DNA from: Deltaproteobacteria bacterium
Lineage (GTDB): Bacteria > Desulfobacterota > BSN033 > UBA1163
Length of the DNA: 47,288 nucleotides
Assembly: GCA_018333535.1 (NCBI GenBank)
Contig: JAGXTA010000045.1
Coordinates: forward strand, 1 to 47,288
Direction: 5' to 3'
The notes under the pieces were generated by a model. It did not search any database and was not told where the DNA came from. It saw nothing but the letters and a program-made list of their open reading frames with translations. The translations under genes and the position numbers were made by a program. Positions 22,749-47,288 of this stretch are shown one piece after another. Within the stretch, counting starts at the first letter, position 1. Each line of letters starts with the position of its first letter.

Positions 22749-22850
22749 TGTCATTCCTGCCCCGTATCAAGTACGGGGTAAACTCCAGCAGGAATCCAGT
22801 CTTTTCAGGGAGTTAAAATTCTCTGGATTCCCGTTTTCACGGGAATGACA
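22749..22850. repeat. TGTCATTCC inverted-repeat element, copy 1
   Basis: 102 bp bounded by TGTCATTCC and its inverse GGGAATGACA. It contains GGAATCCAG and CTGGATTCCCG as inner arms. Related copies are at 37347-37433 and 42455-42564. It lies between convergently unrelated genes and has no reading frame. Confidence 0.75.
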
Positions 22851-29719: not shown

Positions 29720-30383
29720 CATCTGTGTTCTCATCCCTGCCTATAATGCCGCACGGACGATCGGTTCGGTGTTGGAGAAGGCGCGATCGCTTCATCTCGA
29801 TGTGATCGTTGTGGATGACGGTTCCATAGATCATACTGGTAAGATTGTCAAAGAATATGGAGCGCATCTCCTGGAACATTCTCGCAACCTCGGGAAAGGA
29901 ACCGCCCTTCGCACAGGCTTTAAATATATTCTCCAAAAAGACTATCAACTAGTCATCACGCTCGATGCTGACGGACAACACGACCCTGCGGAGATTTCAT
30001 TCCTCCTTAAAGTATTTCAGAGCGTAAAGCCCGACCTCCTCATCGCCTCACGGGCCGGGGAATTTTACAGGATGACCTTCCTTCGCCGGTTCTGGAATCG
30101 TCTGGGCGTCAAAGCAGTTGCCCGGCTCTGCCATGCTGATATCACGGATAGCCAATCCGGTTTCCGGCTGATCCGCACAAAAATCTTAAGAGAAATTTCA
30201 TTGACCACCACCGGATTTGAAATGGAATTGGAGCTCCTGATCAAGGCTTGCAAAAAGGGGTTTGGTGTGTTATCCATTCCTATAAATGTTCCGAGGGTGG
30301 ATGGTACGAGCTCCAGCCATTTCAGACCCGTGACCGATACCTGGCTTGTCTGTAAACTCTTTCTTCGAAGTCTGTTCTGGTGA
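29712..30383 (+). CDS. Family 2 glycosyltransferase (dolichyl-phosphate-mannose synthase-like)
   Basis: A 223-residue GT-A enzyme. CVLIPAYNAARTIGSVLEKA and VIVVDDGSIDHTG form the nucleotide-sugar site. TLDADGQHDP carries the metal-binding DxD, and ADITDSQSGFRLIR is the acceptor-side motif. There is no C-terminal membrane helix, so it is probably peripheral to the inner membrane. It likely transfers a sugar to a polyprenyl phosphate. The start is TTG at 29712 with GGAGG at 29701-29705, overlapping the deacetylase stop by 8 bp. The radical SAM gene overlaps its end. Confidence 0.88.
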   Translation: MDNICVLIPAYNAARTIGSVLEKARSLHLDVIVVDDGSIDHTGKIVKEYGAHLLEHSRNLGKGTALRTGFKYILQKDYQLVITLDADGQHDPAEISFLLKVFQSVKPDLLIASRAGEFYRMTFLRRFWNRLGVKAVARLCHADITDSQSGFRLIRTKILREISLTTTGFEMELELLIKACKKGFGVLSIPINVPRVDGTSSSHFRPVTDTWLVCKLFLRSLFW

Positions 30384-31789
30384 AAAAGATGGATTTTTAT
30401 CAAAAGGCGAAATTTTATTCCATTTCAAAATTTACAACAACCGCCCTTTCCCTTCTGGCCAGCGCCTCAAAGGAAAATCTGATCCGGCTTACCTATCTGG
30501 CCGAGAAGATTCCTAAAAAGGAAGCCTATCGTGAAAAGATCCGGTGGATACGGACTCTCTTTGAGACCGATCATCCGGCCCTGACCATTGCAAGAAGGCT
30601 TCTCAAAGAGACTCATCCCCTCCATCGAAAGAAGATCATCACCAACTTCATCATCAACCAGCTTCTGGTGGGCACCAACCGAAGAAAGGCATTTGAAGAA
30701 GAGAGAGGGTTTAAGCCGCCCAATGCCATGCTCATCAGCCCAACGATGCGATGCAATCTCAACTGCTTTGGCTGTTATTCGGGCTCGTATCCGACCGAGG
30801 AGGAGCTTTCGTTTGAGGTGATGGATCGTCTCGTCGGAGAGTGCAAGGAGATGGGCATCTACCTGGTCATCATCACCGGCGGCGAGCCCTTTTTAAGAAA
30901 GGATCTCTTTGATCTCTTCGAAAAACATCCCGACACCCTTTTCCAGGTTTATACGAATGGCACCCTGATCGACGAGAAGATGGTCGAGCGATTCGTTGCC
31001 CTGGGCAATGTCGTTCCTTCGATCAGCCTCGAGGGAATGAGAGAAGAGACAGACGCACGGAGAGGAAAAGGTCACTTTGACCGGGTGGCCCGGATCATGG
31101 ACTGGCTCAAAAAAGCAGGCATCTTCTTCGCCGTTTCAACCACACAGACGATACGAAATTCAGAGACGATTGGAAGCGATGACTTTGTCGATTTTCTTGT
31201 AGAGAAGGGATGCATCTTCCTCTGGAACTTCCATTATATCCCCATCGGTCGAGATGCAGACCTCAGTCTGATGGCCACCCCTGAACAGAGGGCGCGGATA
31301 CGGGAACGGTTCGCCTATTTCAGGGCGACGAAGCCTTTGCTCATGGTGGACTTCTGGAATGACGGATGCCTCACCGAGGGATGCATTGCCGGAGGGAGAA
31401 AATACTTCCATGTCAATGCCCGTGGCGATCTGGAGCCCTGCGTCTTTTGCCACTTTGCCTATGACAACATCAAGGAGAAGTCTCTCATCGAAGCCCTTAA
31501 CTCTCCTCTTTTCAAGGAGATGCGCTCCAGACAGCCCTTTTCGGACAACCTTTTCATCAACTGCCCTCTGATCGATCATCCGGAGCACGGAAAAGAGTTC
31601 GCCCTTAAATTCGCCAGATACTTTACTCATGAGGGAGCGGAGGGTTTTTTTACGGAACTGGCTCCGGCGATTGATGCCTATTCAAAAACCTACCGGAAGA
31701 TGGCCGAAACCGCCTGGAAGGAGAAGATCGAAAGCGACAGTGATCAGACTCACACAAAAGAGAAAAAGGTTGCAGGTCAACATGGATGA
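30380..31789 (+). CDS. Radical SAM/SPASM domain protein
   Basis: A 469-residue protein. An N-terminal helical region of about 110 residues precedes the radical SAM domain. The [4Fe-4S]/SAM motif is CNLNCFGC (Cys125, Cys129, Cys132), followed by IITGGEPFLRKDLF. The C-terminal cysteines (GCIAGG, LEPCVFCHF, NCPLIDHP) form an auxiliary-cluster SPASM-like domain. No peptide substrate gene is adjacent, so a small-molecule substrate is as likely as a RiPP. The GTG at 30380 overlaps the preceding stop; an ATG three codons on is an alternative. The HgdB-like gene overlaps its end by 4 bp, implying shared expression and probably pathway. Confidence 0.88.
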   Translation: MKKMDFYQKAKFYSISKFTTTALSLLASASKENLIRLTYLAEKIPKKEAYREKIRWIRTLFETDHPALTIARRLLKETHPLHRKKIITNFIINQLLVGTNRRKAFEEERGFKPPNAMLISPTMRCNLNCFGCYSGSYPTEEELSFEVMDRLVGECKEMGIYLVIITGGEPFLRKDLFDLFEKHPDTLFQVYTNGTLIDEKMVERFVALGNVVPSISLEGMREETDARRGKGHFDRVARIMDWLKKAGIFFAVSTTQTIRNSETIGSDDFVDFLVEKGCIFLWNFHYIPIGRDADLSLMATPEQRARIRERFAYFRATKPLLMVDFWNDGCLTEGCIAGGRKYFHVNARGDLEPCVFCHFAYDNIKEKSLIEALNSPLFKEMRSRQPFSDNLFINCPLIDHPEHGKEFALKFARYFTHEGAEGFFTELAPAIDAYSKTYRKMAETAWKEKIESDSDQTHTKEKKVAGQHG

Positions 31790-32886
31790 AGGTCACCTTT
31801 CCCCATCTTGGCACGATGCACATCTTCTGCAAGGCGATTGCAGAGACTGCTCAGATTCCCTATGTTGTTCCTCCCGAAACCAGCCGTAAAACCCTGACCC
31901 TGGGTGCCCTCCACTCGAACGAGTCTATTTGCCTTCCCTTTAAGATCATCCTGGGGAATTTCATCGAGGCCCTTCAGTTGGGAGCCGATACGATTGTGAT
32001 GGTCGGAAGCGGCCCTCCCTGTCGCCTGGGACTCTATGACCTTGTCCAGAAGGTGATCCTCGAAGATATGGGGCTTCGCTACCGGTGGCTGACGATCCCG
32101 CCCCGGTTGACCTGGCAGGCCATCTGGAAAAATTATGAGGAGACGAAGGAGTTGAAGAAGGAATTAAGCTGGAAGAATATTCTTCTCTTTCCTTACGGAC
32201 TCCGTATGGGGTGGAAGAAGATGATGGCCTGCGAAGCGCTGGAAAAACTGGCGATGAAGGTCAGGCCGAGAGAGGTTCAAAAAGGGGAGACGCAGAAGCG
32301 ATTGAAGAAAGCCCTTTCAGGAGTGGATGAGGCCAGGACTCTGCGAATGCTCGATGAGACATTGCAGAGAGGGACGGCCCTGCTTCAAGAGACAGAGCAG
32401 GATTTTTCCCGGGCCCCTCTTAAGATTGCGATCGTGGGAGAGCTCTACACGGTGATGGATCCCCATATCAACCGGGGAGTGGAGCAGAAATTGGGTGAGC
32501 TGGGAGCAGAGGTGACTCGCACCTCCTGGTTTTCCACGCATATCCTGAGGAGCCTGAGAAAGAACAAGGCGGATCAAACCTCGGAGAGGATTCGATTCTT
32601 CGAGGCATCGAAGGCTTATCTCGGTTATGATGTGGGCGCGGAGTGCAACCTCTCCATCGGCGAGGCGATTGTGAGATCACAGGACGGATACGATGGGGTG
32701 GTCCATCTCATGCCCTTTGCCTGTATGCCCGAGACCACTGCCTCCGGAATTTTGACCCGTGTGGGAAAGGATTGGGACATCCCCATCCTTACGTTGATTC
32801 TTGATGAACAGGAGATCGAAGGCCGCATCCAGACCCTTCTGGAAGCCTTTGTCGAGATGTTACAATGGAAGAGAAAGGCCGCATAG
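31786..32886 (+). CDS. HgdB-like (2-hydroxyacyl-CoA dehydratase/CoA activase-associated) protein 1
   Basis: A 366-residue protein of the superfamily that holds the [4Fe-4S] subunits of 2-hydroxyacyl-CoA dehydratases, benzoyl-CoA reductases and double-cubane proteins. Three conserved-looking cysteines are in SICLPFK (Cys49), GPPCRLG (Cys79) and FACMPET (Cys313), the usual three-Cys cluster site. A central helical insert (about 120-220) separates two Rossmann-like lobes. It overlaps both neighbours, and the next gene encodes a second, shorter homologue. The two probably form a heterodimer energised by the activase at 34054. The reduced substrate is unknown. Confidence 0.8.
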   Translation: MKVTFPHLGTMHIFCKAIAETAQIPYVVPPETSRKTLTLGALHSNESICLPFKIILGNFIEALQLGADTIVMVGSGPPCRLGLYDLVQKVILEDMGLRYRWLTIPPRLTWQAIWKNYEETKELKKELSWKNILLFPYGLRMGWKKMMACEALEKLAMKVRPREVQKGETQKRLKKALSGVDEARTLRMLDETLQRGTALLQETEQDFSRAPLKIAIVGELYTVMDPHINRGVEQKLGELGAEVTRTSWFSTHILRSLRKNKADQTSERIRFFEASKAYLGYDVGAECNLSIGEAIVRSQDGYDGVVHLMPFACMPETTASGILTRVGKDWDIPILTLILDEQEIEGRIQTLLEAFVEMLQWKRKAA

Positions 32887-33872
32887 GCATTCCCAGGGCC
32901 CTGATGTTTTACCGGTATTTCCCCCTCTGGAAAGTTTTTTTCGAGGAGCTGGGCTGGAGGGTGATCGTTTCCGACGGATTGGGAAAGAGAGGGAAGCTCG
33001 TCTATTTTGAAGACAGCTGCCTCCCCATGAAACTGCTCATCACCCATTCGATGGATCTGAAGGAGAAAGTGGATCACCTTTTTATCCCGAGACTGGTCAG
33101 CCTCCACCGGTCCTATATCATGTGCCCCAAGTTCCGGGGGGCTCCGGATATCGTTCGCCTGGCCACGGAGGGAACCGTTTCGATCCTCGATGAAACAATC
33201 GATCTCAGGATGAGGGAACATTCGACGCTCCGAGCCTTGTTGAAGACCGGCAAGCGATTGGGCGTCACGGAAAAAGACGGGAAGAGGGCTTTTCAAAAGG
33301 CGGAGCGGTTCTTTTTAAATTTTCAGAAGGGATGGGAGGATCGGATCAATGGACTTCCCTTGAAACAGGTCTTTCATCTCGAATCTCCCGCACCGGCGAA
33401 AAACGAAGAAAAACCGTTCCGAGTGGCCTTCATCGGGCACCCCTACAATCTCTTCGATACGGATGTGAACAAGGATATCCTCTCTTTCGCCAGAAGCCTG
33501 GGGATGAGAATAATCACCCCGGATGGTCTTTCAGAGAAAGAGATCAATGCGCAGGTTTCAGAGTTTTCAAAGGAGATCTACTGGTCTTCGGGAAGGGAGA
33601 TCGTGGGCTCCCTGTTCCATTTCCTTTCGGGAGGAGTGGACGGAGTTGTCTTTCTTACGTCCTTCAAGTGTGGCATCGATGCCCTCCTTCAGGAGTTCAT
33701 CAGGAGGAGATTGAAATTAAAAGGAGGGGTTTCGATTCCCCTTCTCGTCCTCTCCCTTGATGAACATTCAGGAAGGGAGGGACTGACCACAAGGCTGGAG
33801 GCCTTCAGGGATGTGATAGAGCAACAAAAAATTCGAAATCCGAAGCACGAAATTCGAAACAATCCTAAATGA
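32865..33872 (+). CDS. HgdB-like/DUF2229 protein 2
   Basis: A 335-residue protein starting RIGIPRALMFYRYFPLWKVF, the DUF2229 signature of CoA-activase-associated proteins. Cysteines in EDSCLPMK (Cys52), YIMCPKF (Cys87) and SFKCGID (Cys269) match the three-Cys pattern of its neighbour, so each subunit could hold an Fe-S cluster. The last 20 residues are encoded by AT-rich repeat sequence (AAATTCGAAATCC...). The original C terminus may therefore have been extended by a repeat. It overlaps the preceding gene by 22 bp. Confidence 0.8.
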   Translation: MEEKGRIGIPRALMFYRYFPLWKVFFEELGWRVIVSDGLGKRGKLVYFEDSCLPMKLLITHSMDLKEKVDHLFIPRLVSLHRSYIMCPKFRGAPDIVRLATEGTVSILDETIDLRMREHSTLRALLKTGKRLGVTEKDGKRAFQKAERFFLNFQKGWEDRINGLPLKQVFHLESPAPAKNEEKPFRVAFIGHPYNLFDTDVNKDILSFARSLGMRIITPDGLSEKEINAQVSEFSKEIYWSSGREIVGSLFHFLSGGVDGVVFLTSFKCGIDALLQEFIRRRLKLKGGVSIPLLVLSLDEHSGREGLTTRLEAFRDVIEQQKIRNPKHEIRNNPK

Positions 33873-34053: not shown

Positions 34054-35019
34054 ATGGCACTTTATCTTGGTATTGATGTCGGCTCCATTACGGCGAAGAT
34101 GGTTGTGATTGACGAAGGAGATGGGGTTTTAGCGGAAGTCTACCTCCGTAACAACGGCCGTCCTCTCGAAACGATCCAGCAGGGATTGGAGATCCTCTCC
34201 TCCCGGTTAGGTGAAAAGGCCTCCATCGATGGGGTGGCGACCACGGGCAGTGCCCGGCATCTGGCTGCTTACCTCGTAGGAGCGGATCTCATTAAGAATG
34301 AGATCACCGCCCATTCCATCGCTGTGATCGATCTCTTTCCGGAGGCGAAGACCATCTTCGAAATCGGAGGACAGGACTCGAAGGTGATCGTCTTGAGGGC
34401 GGGAGTGGTCGTCGATTTTGCCATGAATACGGTCTGCGCCGCAGGCACAGGTTCTTTTTTAGACCAGCAGGCCGCACGGCTCGGTATCTCCATTGAGGAG
34501 TTTGGAAGGCTTGCTATGCAAGCTAAACATCCTGTCCGGGTTGCCGGACGTTGCACTGTCTTCGCCGAAACGGACATGATTCATAAACAGCAGATCGGCC
34601 ATTCCGTTGAAGACATCGTCGGAGGGCTTTGTGACTCCCTGGTTAATAATTATCTGAACAACGTCTGTCGCGGCAAAGAACTCCTTTCTCCGATTGTCTT
34701 TCAGGGAGGGGTGGCCGCCAATGGGGGAATCCGGAAAGCCCTTGAGAAGGAGCTGGAAACGGATCTGATCATCCCGAAGCATTTCGGTCTGATGGGCGCC
34801 ATCGGTGCGGCCAAATTAGTGAAGAGGGTGAAACCTGTCCGGACCCAATTCAAAGGATTTGAACTCTCCCGGAAATCCTGTTCGACCCGGGGATTCGAAT
34901 GTAGTGAATGCGAAAATCAATGCGAGGTGGTCGAGCTCCTGGTCGATCGGGAGGTGGTTGCCTGCTGGGGAGACCTCTGCGAGAAGTATCGCAAGTCTTC
35001 AGGTCTTATCACCGGATAG
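34054..35019 (+). CDS. Acyl-CoA dehydratase activase (BadF/BadG/BcrA/BcrD ATPase family)
   Basis: A 321-residue ASKHA-fold ATPase. ATP-site motifs are LGIDVGSITAKMVVID (residues 4-19), EIGGQDSKVI and GGVAANGGIRKAL. Cys128 (NTVCAAGTG) and Cys167 (GRCTVFAE) match the two cysteines by which the HgdC homodimer bridges a [4Fe-4S] cluster. It would use ATP to push a low-potential electron into the HgdB-like pair upstream. A Cys-rich C-terminal tail (CSTRGFECSECENQC, then ACWGDLC) goes beyond HgdC and may hold another metal site. It lies 181 bp after the HgdB-like genes, so separate initiation is possible. Confidence 0.9.
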   Translation: MALYLGIDVGSITAKMVVIDEGDGVLAEVYLRNNGRPLETIQQGLEILSSRLGEKASIDGVATTGSARHLAAYLVGADLIKNEITAHSIAVIDLFPEAKTIFEIGGQDSKVIVLRAGVVVDFAMNTVCAAGTGSFLDQQAARLGISIEEFGRLAMQAKHPVRVAGRCTVFAETDMIHKQQIGHSVEDIVGGLCDSLVNNYLNNVCRGKELLSPIVFQGGVAANGGIRKALEKELETDLIIPKHFGLMGAIGAAKLVKRVKPVRTQFKGFELSRKSCSTRGFECSECENQCEVVELLVDREVVACWGDLCEKYRKSSGLITG

Positions 35020-35043: not shown

Positions 35044-35955
35044 ATGGAGGAGCGCCACGTCCGGTCCTTAAACCGATTTATCTACCTTTTCCTCTTTCGA
35101 TTCTGTTCAACCCTGATCCCTCGATCTGTCCAAAAATTCTTCAGTGTGGTCGTGGGAGATATCTTCTATCTCCTGATGAAAGAGACGAGAGGCCATGTCA
35201 GGGAAAATATCGAGGGAATAAGTGGGGGAAGGTGGTCGAAGAAGAAGGTCGATGTGTTGACCCGGAAGACCTTTCAAAACTATGGCCAGTACCTTCTGGA
35301 CTATATGGTGATGCACCGCCTCCAGCCTTCCAATAAGGATCAATGGGTCGAAGAAGAGGTGGGAGGCCATTGGATGATCGAAGCTCTTCAAGGAGGGAAA
35401 GGGGCCATCTGTATCACGCCTCATCTCGGAAACTGGGAGATAGGAGGGTTGCTCTTCTCCTTTAAGGGAGGAAGGCTCAATGTGCTCACGCTGGACGAGA
35501 GGGATCTGGACACGAAATCTTTTCGGGAGGAGATGAGGAGGAGAAGGGGGATCAAAAATATTTATATTGACCCGAAGGATGATTCTCCGTTGGCGGTGAT
35601 CGATGCGGTCAGGGCCTTGCGGGAGAATGAGATCGTGGCGATGTTAGGAGATCGAATCGAGACCCAGAAGACGATGGTCCTTGATTTCTTCGGAAGGAAG
35701 ACCCCTTTTCCCATTGGGGTGGCGATTCTCGCCATGGCCACCGGCGCGCCGGTGCTTCCGGTCTTTGTGGTGATGGAGAAGAGCCGAAAATATCGAGGCA
35801 TCATCGAAACCCCCATCCATTTCGATGCCACTGCAAGGAAAGACCGGGAAGCAGTCCTTCGAAACGGGATGGAAAAATTGATTAAAAAATTTGAGGAGTA
35901 TATCGAAAAATACCCGGATCAATGGTATAATTTTTATTCTTATTGGAAGCAATAA
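35044..35955 (+). CDS. LpxL/HtrB-type lysophospholipid acyltransferase
   Basis: A 303-residue membrane-associated acyltransferase. A hydrophobic N-terminal segment (about 8-45) is followed by the acyltransferase motif TPHLGNWEIGG (HxxxxE type; here H-L-G-N-W-E near 122-127). MLGDRIETQKTMVLDFFGRK follows near 201. The family transfers acyl chains from ACP to lipid A precursors or other lipids. The ATG at 35044 is chosen because GGAG lies 7 nt upstream; an in-frame TTG at 35032 has no such site. An acyl carrier protein gene follows at 36041. In aryl-polyene-type clusters a similar acyltransferase attaches the finished chain to a lipid. Confidence 0.85.
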   Translation: MEERHVRSLNRFIYLFLFRFCSTLIPRSVQKFFSVVVGDIFYLLMKETRGHVRENIEGISGGRWSKKKVDVLTRKTFQNYGQYLLDYMVMHRLQPSNKDQWVEEEVGGHWMIEALQGGKGAICITPHLGNWEIGGLLFSFKGGRLNVLTLDERDLDTKSFREEMRRRRGIKNIYIDPKDDSPLAVIDAVRALRENEIVAMLGDRIETQKTMVLDFFGRKTPFPIGVAILAMATGAPVLPVFVVMEKSRKYRGIIETPIHFDATARKDREAVLRNGMEKLIKKFEEYIEKYPDQWYNFYSYWKQ

Positions 35956-36040
35956 AGGGTTCAAGGGGTCCAGTGAAAATCCACTCTAACCCTGGAACCC
36001 TCGAATCCTTGAATCCTATTTTTGTCAAAAGAGGAGAAAC

Positions 36041-36313
36041 ATGGCTGAAGCGAACAATGACCTGATCGAGAAGCTTAAACAACTGATCATTACGAGATTG
36101 AAACTTGCGGATCTGACGCCTGATATGATCGAGACTGACGCCCCCCTTTTCGGCGAGGGGCTCGGACTGGACTCGATCGACGCCCTTGAACTGGTCCTGG
36201 GCCTGGAGAAGGAATTCGGAGTGATCATCCCGGATGCGGAGGTTGGGAGAAAGGTTTTTCAATCCGTCAGGACCATGGCCCAGTATGTCGTGGATCAAAA
36301 AGAGGGTTTCTGA
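36041..36313 (+). CDS. Acyl carrier protein
   Basis: A 90-residue carrier protein. Ser45 in LGLDSIDALEL is the 4'-phosphopantetheine attachment site, within the usual four-helix pattern. The sequence (FGEGLGLDSIDALELVLGLE) resembles carriers found in aryl-polyene and similar type II clusters more than housekeeping AcpP, which is more acidic and usually about 78 residues. AGAGGAG is 6 nt before the ATG. It probably tethers the acyl chain handled by the acyltransferases, thioesterase and FabG encoded around it. Confidence 0.9.
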   Translation: MAEANNDLIEKLKQLIITRLKLADLTPDMIETDAPLFGEGLGLDSIDALELVLGLEKEFGVIIPDAEVGRKVFQSVRTMAQYVVDQKEGF

Positions 36314-36358
36314 AAAAACATAGAAACCCCTAATCAGAGGTCGTTGATATAGGTTTCA

Positions 36359-37285
36359 ATGACCTCAAAAAGAGATAGCCTAATGGGAAGGACGGCTTTC
36401 TGTTTTCCCGGTCAACTTCAAGAGAGGCCAACCCTAAAAGAAGACCATCCTCTGAGGAGAGATCCCCATTTTAAAGAATGGGTGGAGAGGGCTTCTCATC
36501 AGACCTCTTTTGATCTCCTCAGTTTTTCATTTAAGGGCGAGGAGACCGGGTTCAATCTCAAGCTACAGATAGCGACCTATCTTCTCTCGATGATCCACTT
36601 CTCCCGGCTCCGGGCAGAGGGGTGGGTTCCGGATATCATCACGGAACACAGCATGGGAATTTATGCTGCATTAGCCGCCTCTGAGGCGATCACCTTCGAG
36701 AAAGGTTTATGGATCACCGAATCGATCGGAAGGATTCTCGAAAGAGAGGGAACCTCTTCCGGAGGAGCCATGGCGAGCATCGTGGGACTTGCGTTCAGAG
36801 AAGTTGAAAAAATCAACCAGGACCTGAATGGGTTCGGTCTTTCCATCGCCAATTATAACGGTTCGAAGCACTTCGTCCTTTCCGGAAAAGAGGAGGGGAT
36901 AGAGAAAGCCATTGCTCTCGCTCTTTCAAGGAAAGCCATCTCTGCCGCCCGGCTTACATTCAATATAGGGCTCCATTCTCCCAGTCTCTCCGGTTTAAGC
37001 GAGGAGATACAGGCTCTTTTGGAAGAGATAGAGATTCGGCCACCTAAATTTCCCATCCTCAATCACTGGACCGTCAGGCCGTTGAAGAGAGAGGAGATTA
37101 AAGACTTTCTCTCCCAGGAGATCGGGCAGCCTGTCTATTGGGACCGGTGTGTGGAGTGGCTGATCAAGGAAGGGATTAACCAATTTATTGAAGTCGGGCA
37201 TCGAGCCACTCTGACCAAATTGATTCGATGGATCGATCGGGAAGTGGAGGCTTTCTCGGCGGGAGATCGGCTATTGAATAAATGA
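36359..37285 (+). CDS. FabD-like acyltransferase lacking the malonyl-binding arginine
   Basis: A 308-residue protein with the malonyl-CoA:ACP transacylase fold. It has FCFPGQ near the N terminus, nucleophile Ser98 in EHSMGIY and His206 in LHSPSL. The Ser-His spacing (108) matches E. coli FabD (109). Counting from the serine, the position of FabD Arg117, which holds the malonyl carboxylate, is Ile123 here. The usual GHS is EHS. It should therefore handle a monocarboxylic acyl group rather than malonyl (inference). Start at 36359 or 36383; neither has a strong ribosome-binding site. Confidence 0.8.
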   Translation: MTSKRDSLMGRTAFCFPGQLQERPTLKEDHPLRRDPHFKEWVERASHQTSFDLLSFSFKGEETGFNLKLQIATYLLSMIHFSRLRAEGWVPDIITEHSMGIYAALAASEAITFEKGLWITESIGRILEREGTSSGGAMASIVGLAFREVEKINQDLNGFGLSIANYNGSKHFVLSGKEEGIEKAIALALSRKAISAARLTFNIGLHSPSLSGLSEEIQALLEEIEIRPPKFPILNHWTVRPLKREEIKDFLSQEIGQPVYWDRCVEWLIKEGINQFIEVGHRATLTKLIRWIDREVEAFSAGDRLLNK

Positions 37286-37346
37286 GTCTTATTGAAATTG
37301 GCTTTATTAAACAGGTGAAACCTTTGATTTGAATCTTTTCTTATGG

Positions 37347-37433
37347 TGTCATTCCCGTGAAAACGGGAATCCAGATTAGCTTTTGTGCAATAAACTAAAG
37401 AATCCCTGGATTCCTGCTTCCGCAGGAATGACA
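37347..37433. repeat. TGTCATTCC inverted-repeat element, copy 2
   Basis: 87 bp. Left end TGTCATTCCCG-TGAAAA-CGGGAATCCAG and right end CCTGGATTCCTG-CTTC-CGCAGGAATGACA form mirrored ends. Related to 22749-22850 and 42455-42564. It lies between the acyltransferase and thioesterase genes. Confidence 0.75.
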
Positions 37434-37458
37434 TTCCTAATGGTCAGAAGGAAGATTT

Positions 37459-37881
37459 ATGAAATACCACGAAACAACCATTCAGGTTCGATTCTATGAA
37501 GTGGATGCCTATGGAGTGGTCTGGCATGGACACTATGTGGGCTGGTTTGAGGTGGGCCGGAATGAATTGACAGAAAGATTTCATATGGGTCCCCTTCAAC
37601 TCAAGGAGAAGAACCTTTTAGCTCCTGTGGTCGAATTGAATTGTGAATATAAATTCCCGGCCACTTTTGGAGAGTCCCTTCTCATTCAGACGACGATGGA
37701 AAGGACCGAAGTGGCGAAACTGATCTTTCACTATCGGGTCCTCTCACAGGGAAACGGAAAGGTACTGGCCACAGGCTCCACGACCCATGTTCTCACCGAC
37801 CTTAACGGAAATCTTCTCTACCGTGTTCCTCCGGAGGTGCTTCAAAGAATCGAGGAAATGAGGAAGTATTTAGAGGTGTGA
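37459..37881 (+). CDS. Hotdog-fold acyl-CoA/ACP thioesterase (4HBT family)
   Basis: A 140-residue single hotdog domain. The catalytic motif is VDAYGVVWHGHYVGWFE (Asp16 in the position of the 4-hydroxybenzoyl-CoA thioesterase nucleophile or base). It probably releases an acyl chain from CoA or from the carrier protein encoded at 36041. A comparable thioesterase is part of aryl-polyene clusters. Upstream GAAGGAAG lies near the ATG. The gene follows a repeat element, so it may or may not share a transcript with the acyltransferase. Confidence 0.88.
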   Translation: MKYHETTIQVRFYEVDAYGVVWHGHYVGWFEVGRNELTERFHMGPLQLKEKNLLAPVVELNCEYKFPATFGESLLIQTTMERTEVAKLIFHYRVLSQGNGKVLATGSTTHVLTDLNGNLLYRVPPEVLQRIEEMRKYLEV

Positions 37882-37884
37882 CTA

Positions 37885-37968
37885 ACAGTTCGGAGTTGTG
37901 AGTTCGCCCGCCTGCCAAGCCCTGGCAGGCAGGGAGTTCGGAGTTTAAAATCCGCAATCCAAAATCCT
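37885..37968. repeat. GTTCGGAGTT cluster with GC-rich hairpin
   Basis: Contains AGTTCGGAGTT twice and the stem CTGCCAAG-C-CCTGGCAG, then AATCCGCAATCC words leading directly to the ATG at 37969. This leaves no ribosome-binding site for that gene. Confidence 0.5.
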
Positions 37969-39396
37969 ATGAAGATTCTTCTCATTGATCCTCCTCACCG
38001 GCTCTTTCCGGGTCTTCGAATGTGGACCCCTTCTTTTGGCCTTCTTCAGTTAGGGGCATATTTGGAGAGGGAAGGAATAGAAGTCCAGATCATTGATGCG
38101 ACCACGCTTACAAACTCCTGGAAGGATATTGCTTCTCTCGTTTCCACATCAAAGGCGGATGTGATCGGGATCACCTGTTCAGCCACCGGCCTCTCTCCTG
38201 AAGCGCTTCAGACCATCCACCTCTGCCGGAAACTTTCTCCTCATTCCTTCATTGTCGCAGGCGGAGGCCACTTTACGCTGATGGCAGAATCGATCCTTCG
38301 AGAGATGGAGGAGCTGGATTACATCGTTCTGGGAGAAGGGGAGATCGCTTTTTCCCAACTTCTAAAGAACTTATCGAATGGAGAAGATGGAAAGAATGTT
38401 AAGGGAATCGCTTATCGGGACAATGGGAAGGCCGTCCAGAACGGAAGGCAGCCGATCATTCCGAATTTAGACTCTCTTCCTCTTCCCGCCTACCATCTCA
38501 TTGATATGGAGAGCAACGCTTACTACTGGCATGGGATGGGAAGAAGGGCTTTCGGTCTCTCCACCAGCCGTGGCTGCGGGGATCGCTGTACCTACTGTTC
38601 CGAGACGAGGTTTTGGGAGGGGGTCTGGAGGGGCCGGAGCGGCAAGAAGGTAGTCGAAGAGATTTCCTGTCTCTATCACCAACACGGAAAGAGCCTTTTT
38701 GTCTTTAATGAAAATACGTTCAACTGGAGCCGGAGAAGGGTAGAGGAGTTTCTCGATGAGCTTGGGAGGTCAGGACTGCGCATCCACTTCTGGTTTCAAT
38801 CCCGGATCAAAGACATCCTTCGGGATGAGGATCTCATTCCGGAGATGAGACGCCTCGGCCTCTATGAGGTGATGCTCGGGATAGAAAGCATCCATCCGGA
38901 TGTGCTCGATCGATATGAGAAACAACAGTCAAGGGAGATGGCACAGAAGGCGATCGATATCCTGAAAAAGAATGATGTTATGGTGATGGCCAATATCATG
39001 TTCGGGGACTGGAATGATTCCGAGGAAACCCTCAAGGAGGTTTTTCAATTTGTCAAAAAGCAGAGCGATTTTCTCGTCCTCACGATGACCACGCCTCTTC
39101 CCGGGACGAGATACTTTGAGGAGGCGGAACGGTTGGGAAGGATCCGGGAAAAGGACTTTGGGAAGTATGATTTCATGCATCCCATTATGGATACGAAGTT
39201 CTTATCGGCAGAGGAGGTTCATCGGCTTCATCAGGCTTATTTGAAGAAGTATTATACTCAACCGAGAATCCTTCTGGGGGGTTTCTTCAACCCGAACCCC
39301 TTCAAACGAATGGCTTACCGGCTGATTCTCCGGTATGTCTGGGAGAATGCAACCCAGAGGCCCTGGAGGCAACCGAATTTAGAAGAAGAACCGTAA
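37969..39396 (+). CDS. B12-binding domain radical SAM protein 1
   Basis: A 475-residue enzyme. An N-terminal cobalamin-binding Rossmann domain (ILLIDPPHRLFPGLRMW to about 140) is followed by the radical SAM core with CGDRCTYC (Cys203, Cys207, Cys210). A C-terminal helical region of about 70 residues ends it. The layout is that of class B methyltransferases and BchE-like enzymes. No DxHxxG corrinoid motif is seen, so cobalamin would bind base-off without a His ligand, as in other members. It is the first of three such genes in 4.4 kb. Methylation or ring chemistry on an acyl chain is plausible but unproven. Confidence 0.88.
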   Translation: MKILLIDPPHRLFPGLRMWTPSFGLLQLGAYLEREGIEVQIIDATTLTNSWKDIASLVSTSKADVIGITCSATGLSPEALQTIHLCRKLSPHSFIVAGGGHFTLMAESILREMEELDYIVLGEGEIAFSQLLKNLSNGEDGKNVKGIAYRDNGKAVQNGRQPIIPNLDSLPLPAYHLIDMESNAYYWHGMGRRAFGLSTSRGCGDRCTYCSETRFWEGVWRGRSGKKVVEEISCLYHQHGKSLFVFNENTFNWSRRRVEEFLDELGRSGLRIHFWFQSRIKDILRDEDLIPEMRRLGLYEVMLGIESIHPDVLDRYEKQQSREMAQKAIDILKKNDVMVMANIMFGDWNDSEETLKEVFQFVKKQSDFLVLTMTTPLPGTRYFEEAERLGRIREKDFGKYDFMHPIMDTKFLSAEEVHRLHQAYLKKYYTQPRILLGGFFNPNPFKRMAYRLILRYVWENATQRPWRQPNLEEEP

Positions 39397-39478
39397 GTAG
39401 TGAGTGGTCAGTAGCCAGTTGTCAAAAAAGATGTAAAAAAATACAAGGGACAAAAGACAACGGACAAAGGGTTTAATT

Positions 39479-40825
39479 TTGATTCCGCAATCCGCAATCC
39501 GCAATCCGCAATCCAAAAAGGTTCTTCTCATCTTCCCAAGGGAGAAGGGAGTTAAATTCTCCAATGACACGCTCTATCCCTTTCCCATGCTGGGGTTGAC
39601 CCTTCTCGCCTCCTATTTTCCTGAGAGTTACGAAGTCAAGATCATCAACGAGGCGATTGAGGAGATCGATTTTGATGCGAATGTAGATCTGGTGGGAATT
39701 ACTGCCCTGACCTGTGTGGCCAAAAGGGCTTACGGAGTGGCAGACCGGTTTCGCAAGAGAGGGGTGAAGGTCATTTTGGGAGGGGTCCACCCCAGTCTTC
39801 TTCCGGAGGAGGCAAAGGAGCATGCTGACACTGTCTTCATCGGAGAGGCAGAGGGGATGCTCGACGGAGTTTTAATGGACTTTGAAGCGGGAGCGCTCCA
39901 GCCGTTTTACAGGAGTGAGAAGTGGTCGGACTTGAAGGGAATGCCTTTCCCGAGGAGAGATCTTTTAAGCAAGCGTTACAGCCCCCTTTTCAAGGCGATT
40001 GAGACGACCCGGGGCTGTCCTCATCAATGCGAATTCTGTTCCGTGCCCACGATCAATGGGAAACGTTACCGGACACGACCCCTTGAGGAAGTGGATCAGG
40101 AACTCTCCTCCATCCTCCGTAAGAAGGGAGAATATCTCTTTCTCGCCGATGATAATGTGATGGCAAGAGAGGATTACGCATTAAGTCTTTTCGAAATCTT
40201 TAAACGCCACAGAGTAAAATGGATGGGATTCGCAACGGTCCAGATTGCAAAAGGGGAGGTCCTTCTCAGAAAAGCTCAAGAAAGCGGCTGTATCTCTCTC
40301 TTCATCGGGTTTGAATCCCTTCTCCAAGAGAATCTGAATGAAGCTTCGAAACGATTTGTTCATGTGGAAGAATTGTCCGAAATGATCCGGACCATTCAGA
40401 AACACGGAGTCGGTATCCATGGCTCCTTCATCTTCGGTTTTGACGGTGACGACCCGACTGTTTTTAAAAAGACCGTTGAGTTTGTTCAGAAGAATCGTAT
40501 CGAGCTTCCAACCTTTTCCATTCTTACCCCCTTTCCAGGAACTCCTCTTCGAAAACGATTGGAAGAGGAAGGAAGAATCTTTGACCATGACTGGTCCCAT
40601 TATGACATGAGCCATGTGGTCTTCAAGCCGAAAGGGATGACCGTTCGCGAACTACAGGACGGATACTTCTGGGCACAGAAATATACCTGCGCTCCGCGCT
40701 CCATTTTCAAGCGGCTTCTCCGGGGGCCCCGAAACCACTTCTTCTACTTTTTAATGTCAAACTTTATGCTTCGCGGCGCCCAGATGGAAGTGATTAAGAG
40801 GATTAAAAAGGAGAATAACCAATAA
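39479..40825 (+). CDS. B12-binding domain radical SAM protein 2
   Basis: A 448-residue enzyme with a cobalamin-binding domain (KKVLLIFPREKGVKF... to about 125) and the radical SAM motif CPHQCEFC (Cys180, Cys184, Cys187). The C-terminal part, with LQDGYFWAQKYTCAPRS, resembles the DUF4070 tail of hopanoid-methylase-type enzymes. The only start available is TTG at 39479, inside four tandem TCCGCAA repeats, so the first 12 residues are repeat-encoded. The native start may have been overwritten. It is probably paired with the flanking homologues. Confidence 0.85.
   Translation: MIPQSAIRNPQSKKVLLIFPREKGVKFSNDTLYPFPMLGLTLLASYFPESYEVKIINEAIEEIDFDANVDLVGITALTCVAKRAYGVADRFRKRGVKVILGGVHPSLLPEEAKEHADTVFIGEAEGMLDGVLMDFEAGALQPFYRSEKWSDLKGMPFPRRDLLSKRYSPLFKAIETTRGCPHQCEFCSVPTINGKRYRTRPLEEVDQELSSILRKKGEYLFLADDNVMAREDYALSLFEIFKRHRVKWMGFATVQIAKGEVLLRKAQESGCISLFIGFESLLQENLNEASKRFVHVEELSEMIRTIQKHGVGIHGSFIFGFDGDDPTVFKKTVEFVQKNRIELPTFSILTPFPGTPLRKRLEEEGRIFDHDWSHYDMSHVVFKPKGMTVRELQDGYFWAQKYTCAPRSIFKRLLRGPRNHFFYFLMSNFMLRGAQMEVIKRIKKENNQ
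39484..39511 (+). repeat. Tandem TCCGCAA x4 at a gene start
   Basis: Four exact 7-bp units covering codons 2-11 of the second B12 radical SAM gene. Related AATCCGCAATCC words occur at 12320-12345 and 37950-37966. Confidence 0.8.
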
Positions 40826-40974
40826 CCAAATCTCAATAACCAAATAATGAGCATTCACCAAAACAACAATAACTCTATAAGAATTTTGTCTTCGTTTGTT
40901 TATTGGTTATTGGAATTTGTTTGGTGATCGGTTATTGGTCATTGGTGATTAAATTCATGAGTATTTAAGTTGCT
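40826..40974. repeat. CCAATAACCAAAT inverted-repeat gap
   Basis: AATAACCAATAACCAAAT-type words at 40816-40845 are mirrored by TTTATTGGTTATTGGAATTTG and GGTTATTGGTCATTGGTGATT at 40900-40950. It is an AT-rich dispersed repeat that can fold into a long hairpin. No gene is present. Confidence 0.55.
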
Positions 40975-42372
40975 ATGAAAATCCTTCTCATTTCCGTCAA
41001 TCGTGAACGAATGCCTGGTCCGGTTTTCCCGCTGGGGCTGGCATATATTGCCGGAGCGTTAAAAAGAGAAGGCCATTGCCTTGAGGCACTGGATCTCTGT
41101 TTTTCACATGATGTCAATGCCGATTTGAAGGAAGCACTGAACCGTTTTCAGCCCGAATTGATCGGGCTTTCCCTTAGAAATCTGGACAATTTGACCTATC
41201 CAGCTTCCATCTCCTACCTGAAAGAAGTGGAAGAGGTGATTTCAACCTGTCGCCAGTTCTCTTCATCAAAATTGGTTATCGGAGGTTCGGGGTTTTCACT
41301 GGCTCCCCAAGAACTCCTCGCACACTTGGATGTTGATTTTGGAACTGTGGGAGAAGGCGAAGACATTTTCCTCCAATTAGTCGATTCGCTTGAGAGAAAA
41401 CTCCCCATCCCCTCATCTCCCCATCTCCTCATCAAGGGTGACATTCATTCCTCTGTGGTGAGTGGAGCGCAGGTCTCTTCCATCTTGACTCCCGACCGGA
41501 CCCTCTTCAAAACAAAGCGTTACCTGGAGGAGGGAGGGATGTTGAACCTTCAGACAAAGCGAGGCTGTCCGTTTTCCTGCATCTACTGCACCTATCCTCT
41601 CCTGGAGGGTAAAAAGGTCAGGCTTCGAGAAGTGGATGAGGTGATTGAAGAGATTCGCCATCTTATTCAGGAACAAGGAACGGATTATATCTACTTTGTG
41701 GATGACATCTTCAATTATCCGGTTTCTTTCGCTGAGAAGTTATGTAGAAGGGTAACGGAAGAAAAAATTAGGGTCCGATGGAGCGCCTTTGTCAACCCCG
41801 GGTTTTTATCGGAAGACCTTTTAAAATGGATGAAAGAAGCAGGTTGTGTTGGAGTTGAATTTGGGACAGATTCCGGGTCCGATCGAATGTTAAAGAATTA
41901 CAGGAAGTCCTTCACGATAGAAGATGTGGCTCAGGCCTCACAACTCTGCTCGAAACACAGCATCAACCACTGCCATTATCTCCTCTTCGGGGGTCCCGGC
42001 GAGGAAGGGGAGACGATTGAAGAGTCTTTCCAATTAATGGATCAACTCGATCCAACTGCGGTCATTGCCATGCTTGGCACCCGGATCTATCCGGGAACGG
42101 AGCTGGAACAGATTTCCCTCTCTCAGGCGATCATTAGGAAAGATACGAATCTCATCTATCCCCATTTTTATATTTCTCCTGGATTAAAAGGGAGATTAGA
42201 GGATATCATTCGAGAAGAAGCCCTAAAGAGAAGGCAGTGGATTGTTCCTGGACTTGAAATCAACATCACACAGAACCTGATGGAACAAATCAGGCGATTT
42301 GGGATTCGAGGCCCCCTGTGGGAACTCGTGGGAAGGATGAAAAGGCCAAGGGTCAGTCCACTTCGGGACTGA
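40975..42372 (+). CDS. B12-binding domain radical SAM protein 3
   Basis: A 465-residue enzyme with a cobalamin-binding domain (ILLISVNRERMPGPVFPLG to about 145) and radical SAM motif CPFSCIYC (Cys198, Cys202, Cys205). LLFGGPGEEGET follows near 338. It resembles B12 radical SAM proteins found in lipid-type biosynthetic clusters. It differs enough from its two neighbours that they are not recent duplicates. No ribosome-binding site is obvious before the ATG. Confidence 0.87.
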   Translation: MKILLISVNRERMPGPVFPLGLAYIAGALKREGHCLEALDLCFSHDVNADLKEALNRFQPELIGLSLRNLDNLTYPASISYLKEVEEVISTCRQFSSSKLVIGGSGFSLAPQELLAHLDVDFGTVGEGEDIFLQLVDSLERKLPIPSSPHLLIKGDIHSSVVSGAQVSSILTPDRTLFKTKRYLEEGGMLNLQTKRGCPFSCIYCTYPLLEGKKVRLREVDEVIEEIRHLIQEQGTDYIYFVDDIFNYPVSFAEKLCRRVTEEKIRVRWSAFVNPGFLSEDLLKWMKEAGCVGVEFGTDSGSDRMLKNYRKSFTIEDVAQASQLCSKHSINHCHYLLFGGPGEEGETIEESFQLMDQLDPTAVIAMLGTRIYPGTELEQISLSQAIIRKDTNLIYPHFYISPGLKGRLEDIIREEALKRRQWIVPGLEINITQNLMEQIRRFGIRGPLWELVGRMKRPRVSPLRD

Positions 42373-42454
42373 AATGACAAATGTCAAAGCTCAAAGTTCA
42401 AATGAATCCAAAATTTCAAATGACTATGTATGGCGACATAAATCTTAACCGGGT

Positions 42455-42564
42455 TGTCATTCCGGGCTTGACCAAGCCTGCCCCGTACTTGATACGGGGG
42501 AATCCAGTGTTTTTCTGGATTCCCACTGGAGTTGATCCCGATGAAAATCGGGGCGGGAATGACA
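42455..42564. repeat. TGTCATTCC inverted-repeat element, copy 3
   Basis: 110 bp starting TGTCATTCCGGGCTTGACC and ending GGGCGGGAATGACA, with GGAATCCAG and CTGGATTCCCA inside. CCCCGTACTTGATACGGGG forms an internal stem that also occurs in copy 1 (CCCCGTATCAAGTACGGGG). The rest of the 42373-42721 gap is AT-rich AAATTTCAAATG-type repeat without a gene. Confidence 0.75.
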
Positions 42565-42721
42565 TGCTTTGTTGTGATTAATGTCGCTGTGTATAAAAAT
42601 AGAGTTTTGAAATTTAGTCATTTGGAATTCATTTGGCATTTGGATTTTGGCATTTGAACTTATACCTCCGGGTTTGTATAGAAATTCCAGCTGCAATAAT
42701 GCCAAAGTGAGGAGATGAAAG

Positions 42722-43462
42722 ATGCTACTTAAAGATAAAGTCGCTATTGTCACGGGCGGAACGAAAGGGATCGGGAGAGCCATCTCTCTGCTCTTTGCAG
42801 AAGAGGGAGCAAGGGTGGTTGCCAATTTTTCAAAGGATGTGGAGGCTGCGGAAGGTCTGATCAGTGAAGCCCAATCCAAAAGGTTGAGTCTGGGTCTCTT
42901 TAAGGCGGATGTCACTCAATTCGATCAGGTGAAGCAGATGGTGGAAGATGTCTTTGCCGAATATGGCAGAATTGATATATTGGTGAACAATGTGGGACTC
43001 ATTCGGGATAATTTTCTGATGCTGATGAGCGACGAGGACTGGGATTCCTTAATGAAGGTGAACCTCAACAGCCTCTTCTATTGTTGCAAGGCAGTGATCC
43101 GAAAAATGATCCCGGAAAAAAGGGGGAAGATCATCAATATCTCTTCTGTGAGCGGGATTATCGGTACTTCCGGGCAGACGAACTATGCGACAACAAAAGG
43201 AGGAGCGATCAGCTTTACCAGATCCCTTGCACGTGAGTTGGGTCCCTTCAATATTCATGTCAATGCAGTGGCTCCAGGATTGATCGAATCCGAAGTCCTA
43301 TCTAAAATGCCGAAAGAGAAGGTCGAAGCCATCATCAAATCATCCAGCCTCGGGAGGATGGGAAAGCCGCAGGAAGTCGCCCGGGCTGTACTCTTTTTAG
43401 CGTCCGATCATTCAGACTACATCACCGGTCAAACCCTCATCGTTGACGGAGGAATTGTCTGA
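42722..43462 (+). CDS. fabG: 3-oxoacyl-ACP reductase (FabG-like SDR)
   Basis: A 246-residue short-chain dehydrogenase. TGGTKGIGRAIS (about 11-22) is the NADP(H) site, NNVGL the core motif, ISSVSG carries the catalytic Ser, and Tyr155 and Lys159 (NYATTK) complete the site. Length and sequence fit FabG, which reduces 3-oxoacyl-ACP with NADPH. It may be the housekeeping enzyme or a pathway copy serving the carrier protein at 36041. No ketosynthase or dehydratase gene accompanies it. GAGGAG lies 8 nt before the ATG. Confidence 0.9.
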   Translation: MLLKDKVAIVTGGTKGIGRAISLLFAEEGARVVANFSKDVEAAEGLISEAQSKRLSLGLFKADVTQFDQVKQMVEDVFAEYGRIDILVNNVGLIRDNFLMLMSDEDWDSLMKVNLNSLFYCCKAVIRKMIPEKRGKIINISSVSGIIGTSGQTNYATTKGGAISFTRSLARELGPFNIHVNAVAPGLIESEVLSKMPKEKVEAIIKSSSLGRMGKPQEVARAVLFLASDHSDYITGQTLIVDGGIV

Positions 43463-45641: not shown

Positions 45642-46253
45642 TTATGGTGCGATTCCAATAATAATCAAAGGAACCGAGGGGACACCACGGCCCTGTCTGA
45701 CAACATTGTAGAACTCACCCTCATAATAGGGGACGCCTGAACTCATGTGTGATTGGAGTGATTTCATTGGTAGAATTTCAACACCGACGTCAATATGGTC
45801 GCCGACATAGAAGGCAAGATGCTTCACGAAGAGGTCATATGCTACGAATGAATATTTACCGAATTGGACTTCAACGGCTACGCGGTCTTTGACAAAATCA
45901 GTCTGGTTGTAGCTGAAAATAGGCACTTCACCTGCCGCCTGGATTTCTTTTTTTTGTGCCTCCGGTGTCATCGTAAGAGTCTTTCGGATCAGCTTCTCGC
46001 TCTTAGTCACCCAATAACTGACACGGCTTTCCTCCCAGCTCTTTGCGCGTAGTAACCTTTTAAACTCAGCATTCATACCAACAGGGCTATAAAGAATTTT
46101 GCCCTTCATCGTCTTCTCTTTGGAAACTTTGGTCTTAAACTTCTCCGCATCCACATTGTTAATCACAGACTGTATTTCTCGCCATAGATTAGGCTTGTGA
46201 ACAAGAAGATATTCAAGGCCATTCAGATGGGAATAGGTTTCTACAATTTTCAT
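45642..46253 (-). CDS. Type II restriction endonuclease, BglII/BstYI-like
   Basis: A 203-residue protein with the likely catalytic stretch DFVKDRVAVEVQFGKYSFVA (about 119-138). Asp followed by E-x-Q is the PD-(D/E)xK variant used by BglII and BstYI. The length is close to BstYI. The family cuts GATC-centred sites such as AGATCT or RGATCY; the exact site here is inference. The ATG at 46253 overlaps the methyltransferase stop by 4 bp, so modification enzyme is made first and restriction enzyme by coupling. The region looks more AT-rich than the core genes, consistent with transfer. Confidence 0.8.
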   Translation of the reverse strand: MKIVETYSHLNGLEYLLVHKPNLWREIQSVINNVDAEKFKTKVSKEKTMKGKILYSPVGMNAEFKRLLRAKSWEESRVSYWVTKSEKLIRKTLTMTPEAQKKEIQAAGEVPIFSYNQTDFVKDRVAVEVQFGKYSFVAYDLFVKHLAFYVGDHIDVGVEILPMKSLQSHMSSGVPYYEGEFYNVVRQGRGVPSVPLIIIGIAP

Positions 46254-47200
46254 TTTGTGCGGTATCTAACTTTCCTTTCTTTAATCAACAAAAGTTGCCT
46301 CGAAATATTGTGATTTGCCCAGGGGGCTACAGTTAGGCTATTACCCGCTTCAATTGGATCATATACAGGCTTGTCCATTGGTCGTGTTCTTAATGTTCCA
46401 GCAAGTTCCTGTTGTATTCTATCCTTGGCCAATTTAATGTACTTGGGAACAACTTCTGCACCTATCCCACGGCGATTGTGACGAATAGCTGCAATAATTG
46501 AAGTGCCAGTACCAAGAAACGGATCTAAAACCCAATCCCCTTGATTTGTCATTGCAAGAACAAGACGCTCTATAAGTTCCACTGGAAATTGACAGGGATG
46601 TTCGGTCTTTTCAACATGGTTACTCTTTACATTAGGGATAACCCAAAAATCCCCTGGGTTTTTGCCGAGAGGATTGCAAGAATATTTCCCGGCATTTGGT
46701 CCTTTGAAATATTTTTTGCCAGGATACTTCTGAGGCACTCTTACTGAGTCGAGATTAAATGTATACTCATCAGATTTTGTGAACCATATAATCGTTTCGT
46801 ATCGTCCGGAAAATCTACGGCTACAATGTAAGCCGTGTTCAAAGTGCCAGATAATCCGATTTCTCATTTTAAGACCTAAATTCCTAAAGATCGGATAGAG
46901 CACTGTGTCGAGAGGAACGATGGCGCCATTGTCCACATAATTTCCAACCTGCCAACAGATGCTACCGTGCCGAGAAAGACATCTCACGGATTCCCGGATA
47001 ACAGCGGCCTGTTGTTCAAGGTAGGATTCTAATTTGAGCCGCCTCTCATATTCCTTTCCAATATTGTAAGGTGGTGATGTTACAACGAGTTTTAATGACT
47101 CATCCGGGATGGTCTTAAGCAATTCCAAGCAGTCACCGTGATAAATGACGATGTGCTCTGACAGACCAAATTCCTCAACTATTTTCCTTTTGTCGAACAT
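46250..47200 (-). CDS. Site-specific DNA methyltransferase (N4-cytosine/N6-adenine, beta-type order)
   Basis: A 316-residue methyltransferase. Catalytic TSPPYN is at residues 41-46, followed much later by SAM-binding DPFLGTGTSI (about 229-238) and GIGAEVVPKYIKLAKDRI. The catalytic motif before the SAM motif marks the beta class. SPPY favours N4-cytosine, as for the methylases paired with BglII-type enzymes, but N6-adenine is not excluded. The longest frame would begin at a TTG (47251) that lies upstream of the promoter. The ATG at 47200 coincides with the predicted transcription start and is chosen. Confidence 0.87.
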   Translation of the reverse strand: MFDKRKIVEEFGLSEHIVIYHGDCLELLKTIPDESLKLVVTSPPYNIGKEYERRLKLESYLEQQAAVIRESVRCLSRHGSICWQVGNYVDNGAIVPLDTVLYPIFRNLGLKMRNRIIWHFEHGLHCSRRFSGRYETIIWFTKSDEYTFNLDSVRVPQKYPGKKYFKGPNAGKYSCNPLGKNPGDFWVIPNVKSNHVEKTEHPCQFPVELIERLVLAMTNQGDWVLDPFLGTGTSIIAAIRHNRRGIGAEVVPKYIKLAKDRIQQELAGTLRTRPMDKPVYDPIEAGNSLTVAPWANHNISRQLLLIKERKVRYRTK

Positions 47201-47206
47201 AACTTT

Positions 47207-47235
47207 ATGATAACAAGACAGTGGTCTTGAGTCAA
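47207..47235 (-). promoter_or_regulatory. Restriction-modification promoter with palindrome in the spacer
   Basis: Minus strand: TTGACT (47235-47230), 17-bp spacer, TATCAT (47212-47207). The spacer holds a perfect inverted repeat CAAGAC-CACT-GTCTTG (47229-47214). Transcription should start at or within a base or two of the ATG at 47200, giving a leaderless methyltransferase mRNA. No separate controller gene is visible. Confidence 0.65.
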
Positions 47236-47288
47236 TGGATTCATTTTTCAATTCAGTGAACGTTATTTTTTATAATGTCGATTTGCAG

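Follow-up and report, generated by a model that had tools for sequence, protein, structure and literature searches.

A probably split lipid-pathway locus with three B12-binding radical SAM proteins and a BCR/HAD-type reductase unit in a deltaproteobacterial metagenome genome

The DNA considered here (the window) is contig C45 taken from end to end, 47,288 bp of a metagenome genome of 4.39 Mb that is 97% complete. It contains genes for an LpxL-like acyltransferase, an acyl carrier protein (ACP), a FabD-like acyltransferase (AT), a hotdog thioesterase (TE), three B12-binding radical SAM proteins (termed B12 proteins 1, 2 and 3) and FabG, which a preliminary description had presented as an acyl cluster without a ketosynthase (KS). 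Here, we treat the window genes as locus 1 of what is likely, though well short of certain, a lipid pathway of the type II fatty-acid/polyketide-like kind. It would fall within the ladderane-type/aryl-polyene-type class, with its genes in three or more places of the genome. The genes are as follows.

28892..29719, + strand: XrtA-type polysaccharide deacetylase (DUF3473), a probable member (TIGR03006, 260.7 bits, slightly below the cut-off of 276)
29712..30383, + strand: GT2 glycosyltransferase, a probable member (PF00535)
30380..31789, + strand: radical SAM/SPASM protein (PF04055 and PF13186)
31786..32886, + strand: HgdB1, BCR/HAD-type iron-sulfur subunit (DUF2229 and HGD-D matches)
32865..33872, + strand: HgdB2, second BCR/HAD-type subunit (PF09989, 1e-40)
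34054..35019, + strand: BcrA/HgdC-type ATPase (electron activator) with a Cys-rich C-terminus (PF01869)
35056..35955, + strand: LpxL/HtrB-like acyltransferase (PF03279, 7e-33; HX4E motif HLGNWE)
36041..36313, + strand: ACP (PF00550, 5e-11; serine motif present; NF006617, 74.8 bits, above the cut-off of 70)
36359..37285, + strand: FabD-like AT (TIGR00128, 145 bits, below the cut-off of 261)
37459..37881, + strand: hotdog TE of the YbgC/FadM type (4HBT, 2e-17; TIGR00051, 75.9 bits, above the cut-off)
37969..39396, + strand: B12 protein 1, BchE-like branch (PF02310 and PF04055; TIGR02026, 251 bits against a cut-off of 481)
39479..40825, + strand: B12 protein 2, of no characterised family (PF02310 and PF04055; best NCBIfam match 95 bits)
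40975..42372, + strand: B12 protein 3, TIGR04072 rSAM_ladder_B12 (407 bits, above the cut-off of 360)
42722..43462, + strand: FabG-like 3-ketoacyl-ACP reductase (1e-65; TIGR01830, 283.5 bits, slightly below 298; S-YxxxK motif)
45642..47251, - strand: BglII-type restriction enzyme and DNA methylase, outside the pathway (PF09195, 2e-34; PF01555, 2e-51)

The eight genes first described, from LpxL to FabG, are all open frames on the + strand with intact domains, each with a significant domain match, so that the original observation is confirmed; the interpretation placed on it is partly supported, as set out below. Nine genes compared with those of the closest relative, G007, are under purifying selection (ratio of non-synonymous to synonymous substitution rates 0.04–0.17). 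The conserved unit is larger than the interval first reported and extends upstream to at least 30380. In both the genus and a sister genus the genes run radical SAM/SPASM, HgdB1, HgdB2, BcrA, LpxL, ACP, AT, TE, B12 proteins 1, 2 and 3, FabG, with a fourth B12 radical SAM protein between BcrA and LpxL in some genomes, and locus 1 gene order is kept in another family as well. A search of named genomes with one protein returned only close relatives, namely uncultured Deltaproteobacteria/Thermodesulfobacteriota metagenome-assembled genomes, some labelled Syntrophaceae. Two distant families carry one-locus versions, L106 (in genome G046) and L107 (in G083). The polysaccharide deacetylase is the first gene of both and adjoins pathway genes; GT2 has the deacetylase on one side and the radical SAM/SPASM gene on the other, and a counterpart of the latter protein (50–53% identity) is encoded immediately upstream of LpxL.

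All three B12 proteins combine a B12-binding with a radical SAM domain and have CxxxCxxC motifs, and a tree assigns them to different families. B12 protein 3 clusters with a protein of genome G114 (TIGR04072, 623 bits) with support of 100/100. The G114 locus contains no clear ortholog of B12 protein 1 or 2, and the tree does not support equating them with the radical SAM proteins of either G046/G083 or G114; the TIGR02026 score rules out B12 protein 1 as BchE, the Mg-protoporphyrin cyclase. When co-occurrence was scored across 148 genomes, orthologs of B12 proteins 1 and 2 were found together in 21, and only one of them in 2 and 1 (Fisher 3e-22 with phylogeny ignored, 1e-8 by genus); Fisher values throughout ignore shared ancestry and are descriptive. 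The TIGR04072 cut-off is passed in 20 of these 21 genomes, and the last falls slightly below it (351.8 bits). The preliminary description had proposed conservation of the gene set as a check, and the B12 radical SAM neighbourhood is indeed kept in the genus, the sister genus and another family.

The AT retains the catalytic Ser and His. In Escherichia coli FabD, a particular Arg binds malonate; this residue is Ile in the window protein. An alignment that included the FabD of this genome and five orthologs shows Ile or Val at this position, and EHSMG for GHSLG, in all six AT sequences, which come from five families. Because the malonyl-binding Arg is replaced, the AT probably does not load malonyl groups; this replacement and the TIGR00128 score rule out identity with the FabD malonyltransferase. 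A FabD-like AT without this Arg is, as far as we found, previously unreported.

No KS is encoded within the window, and to that extent the claim of absence stands; because the window is an entire contig, this says nothing about the genome. Seven other genomes have a KS after FabG: directly in G005, G001, G017, G046 and G083, after a short insert in G003 and after about 7 kb in G015. The window's own genome has the ortholog (KS143) on a 3.5-kb contig, C143, where its neighbour is an opposite-strand gene; KS143 shares 79% identity with the G005 KS. In relatives, an isocitrate dehydrogenase gene lies after the KS. Three further ketosynthases, KSa, KSb and KSc, lie on contig C182. A search just outside the cluster, as had been suggested, therefore does find a KS; a ketosynthase-less pathway is ruled out for the genome, and the idea that B12 enzymes take the place of ketosynthases is not supported. 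Beyond FabG, the window carries two zinc-ribbon proteins and the BglII-type restriction-modification pair where the relatives L093, L100 and L135 carry a KS, and our own reading is that the restriction genes were probably inserted (recently) between FabG and its KS. KSb and KS143 keep Cys-His-His. By column alignment KSa and KSc do not, having Glu at the second His position and Asn near the first. This resembles the Asn/Glu of Kuste3606 and Kuste2805 (PMC2649909); the likeness is only approximate, as the residue of KSa and KSc that aligns exactly with the first His is Ala.

An alternative is that the cluster nevertheless works alone: the AT would load a finished acyl chain from primary fatty-acid synthesis onto the ACP, the B12 enzymes would modify it and the LpxL-like enzyme would transfer it, while the linked KS would serve some other purpose. 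The six AT sequences without the Arg fit such a scheme, as does the arrangement AT-TE-rSAM1-rSAM2 without a nearby KS in a family termed f12. FabG, however, would have no obvious task if no chain were extended, the seven genomes above have a KS after this gene, and two families have TIGR04072, FabG and KS-KSa-LolA in one operon. We consider this alternative improbable.

The remaining parts lie in locus 2, which comprises C182 and contig C64. C182 encodes an acyl-CoA-dehydrogenase-like protein, KSa, a small membrane protein, a FabZ-like dehydratase, two methyltransferases, LolA, KSb and KSc; some of these labels were given by eye from the sequence and from neighbouring genes. Gene maps outside the window derive from simple open reading frame calling and BLAST to the proteins of the window and C182, so that some small genes could have escaped notice and some unlabelled frames could be spurious. 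Locus 2 of G001 and G008 runs on into a phytoene-desaturase-like oxidoreductase (PF01593) and a B12 radical SAM protein, with an additional protein between in G001. C64 of the window's genome has the phytoene-desaturase-like flavoenzyme (77% identical to the G001/G008 protein, and absent from locus 1), a further protein and the B12 radical SAM protein together, as in G001; the flavoenzyme has no close match to its G114 counterpart. Transposase-like frames (IS630-like by eye) occur at the end of C182 (L022:31-1091) and are possibly the reason that locus 2 is broken from C64.

Other families join what is separate here. L107 is a single run of deacetylase-GT2-radical SAM/SPASM-LpxL-ACP-B12 radical SAM-AT-TE-TIGR04072-FabG-KS143-type KS-KSa-type KS-LolA; L106 has this order without TE, and adds a second B12 radical SAM gene, a dehydratase and a LolB-like gene. 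The f12 loci L174 and L175 form a one-strand run of HgdB2-KS143-KSa-membrane protein-dehydratase-two methyltransferases-LolA-KSb with a few extra frames, and the HgdB2 relative that opens this KS operon is 47% identical to the window protein. Because these runs combine them, the parts found on C45, C143 and C182 are seen to adjoin elsewhere. Among 23 class-level genomes, both loci co-occur in 16, one alone in 1 and 1, and neither in 5 (Fisher 0.001; presence scored by hand).

We favour the reading that this is a ladderane-type/aryl-polyene-type lipid cluster in split form, because the KS and other parts lie elsewhere in the genome, fused versions exist in other families and the TIGR04072 cut-off is passed. 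Several points weigh against it. C143 and the window have no exact end overlap, so C143 as a direct continuation stays an inference from the relatives and the inserted restriction genes. In the tree, the one-locus radical SAM protein of L106/L107 groups with that of C64 and not with B12 protein 1 or 2; these two are therefore not established as universal parts. The TIGR04072 and FabG genes of family f12 adjoin a genuine HGD-D pair, apart from B12 proteins 1 and 2. Finally, loci 1 and 2 do not adjoin anywhere in the window's genus. This last point also suits two separate pathways of common ancestry, with locus 1 and C143 making one product and locus 2 another; locus 2 moreover owns an intact KS (KSb), and G012 has locus 2 without locus 1. 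Against such a division, the dehydratase, chain-length factor and LolA are all in locus 2 and none is in locus 1, and members of both loci adjoin in other families, including HgdB2-KS143-KSa. Two pathways seem rather unlikely.

The proposed split pathway resembles systems already described. Ladderane-type clusters with B12 radical SAM proteins are known from Kuenenia stuttgartiensis and Desulfotalea psychrophila (Rattray 2009, PMC2649909), and have since been reported from many phyla, Desulfobacterota among them (PMC9902471), so that the statement that no standard pathway needs such parts is not supported. The likeness, as judged from published descriptions and the TIGR04072 model, extends to a TIGR04072 protein over the cut-off, several B12 radical SAM proteins, FabG, ACP, a polysaccharide deacetylase, a distribution over several loci, a phytoene-desaturase-like flavoenzyme (here in locus 2) and multiple ketosynthases including divergent ones (KS143, KSa, KSb and KSc, all in trans in the same genome, with KSa and KSc lacking Cys-His-His). 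Unlike those clusters, the present one includes an ATP-dependent reductase unit of the Hgd/Bcr type, its AT lacks the malonyl Arg, and no acyl-CoA ligase or MmpL exporter was found in the loci read. True ladderane biosynthesis, in which the cells would make cyclobutane lipids, nonetheless appears highly improbable. TIGR04072, the flavoenzyme, several divergent ketosynthases and the deacetylase are all named in anammox clusters, but cyclobutane lipids are known from anammox bacteria only, Desulfotalea with its syntenic clusters yielded polyunsaturated hydrocarbons and no ladderanes (PMC2649909), and the candidate genes are unproven even in anammox bacteria, where the pathway has been called unknown (PMC4790861).

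The cluster can also be compared with aryl polyene (APE) clusters, for which gene roles are tabulated in E. coli (PMC8253772): shared are a KS and a chain-length-factor-like KS, FabG, dehydratase, ACP, TE, a GT2/LpxL-type acyltransferase, a SAM methyltransferase and LolA, with a LolB-like gene in L106. The set of KS/chain-length factor pair, FabG, dehydratase, ACP, TE and LolA is complete genome-wide, spread over C45, C143 and C182; as a single run, L107 has all except a labelled dehydratase and L106 all except TE. The earlier comparison of the window genes with APE parts, as a dedicated carrier-bound acyl pathway, is supported. Two features are additional to those of APE clusters, namely the Hgd/Bcr unit and the B12 radical enzymes, and no resistance-nodulation-division (RND) transporter was found in the loci read. 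No AMP-binding protein that could be an ApeH-type aromatic-starter acyl-ACP synthetase occurs among the locus 1 and locus 2 genes read; the search did not extend to other parts of the genome.

The Hgd/Bcr unit itself resembles the BCR/HAD/double-cubane family (PMC11971306): an actin-like ATPase activator accompanies two homologous subunits, each of which conserves three or more Cys. Membership follows from Pfam matches and conserved Cys, the HGD-D matches being partial and below the cut-off. HgdB1 keeps Cys15, 49, 79 and 149 in 8/8 sequences and Cys313 in 7/8; the conserved residues of HgdB2, for which no PDB sequence match was found, are Cys52, 87 and 269. BcrA matches PDB 4eht, the activator of 2-hydroxyisocaproyl-CoA dehydratase, at E 1e-36. 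Unlike the known family, the unit sits in a lipid gene cluster and not among genes for aromatic or amino-acid degradation. In genome G132 (L102:9003-14507), FabG and a protein of the TIGR04072 type are encoded next to a complete HGD-D pair and an FMN reductase, an arrangement that hints at a second link between the TIGR04072 family and BCR/HAD enzymes. This class of lipid cluster is already known; no paper on a Hgd/Bcr unit in such a cluster was found in searches of an open-access library, which is weak evidence that a BCR/HAD-type ATP-dependent reductase unit within the pathway is previously unreported.

Taken as one pathway, the loci would act as follows, in a putative order of steps. The dedicated ACP, KS143 with the chain-length-factor-like KSa, FabG and the C182 dehydratase would build a chain, which the B12 radical SAM proteins and the locus 2 flavoenzyme may then oxidise and rearrange (desaturate, cyclise or methylate) on its carrier. 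HgdB1, HgdB2 and BcrA may supply ATP-driven electrons of very low potential, either for radical dehydration or reduction of the chain or for keeping the B12 enzymes reduced. TE would free the chain; alternatively, the LpxL-like enzyme, together with GT2 and the deacetylase, would attach it to a lipid or glycolipid. LolA would take the product to the outer membrane. The earlier idea of chain modification followed by placement on a lipid is plausible in this light, and the pathway probably ends in a lipid. Coupling of the BCR/HAD-type unit to the B12 enzymes is put forward as a hypothesis by analogy: BCR/HAD-family enzymes operate below -600 mV (PMC11971306), and the last step of BchE may require a very low potential (PMC13142503). 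It is possible, though doubtful, that in this anaerobe the ATP-driven enzyme acts on the carrier-bound chain, or powers the B12 radical enzymes that do so, giving a new cyclised or reduced outer-membrane acyl lipid. If true, this would offer a non-anammox route for testing ladderane-type B12 radical chemistry. Here, in a different phylum, the TIGR04072 family is linked with a defined carrier protein as well as with a KS/KSa pair and a BCR/HAD-type reductase, and the one-locus versions L106 and L107 are compact enough for expression and provide a concrete testable set. The case is also a warning that core enzymes 'missing' from metagenome contigs may sit at another locus.

Two repeat features were seen in the window. 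Identical inverted 29-nt copies of the element TGTCATTCCCGTGAAAACGGGAATCCAGA lie at 22822-22850 and 37347-37375, the latter between AT and TE, and probably represent a dispersed intergenic repeat. A 168-nt palindromic element at 27900-28067 (35-nt arms, 80% complementary) forms an in-frame insert in an ATP-grasp gene, the G005 homolog of which is without it.

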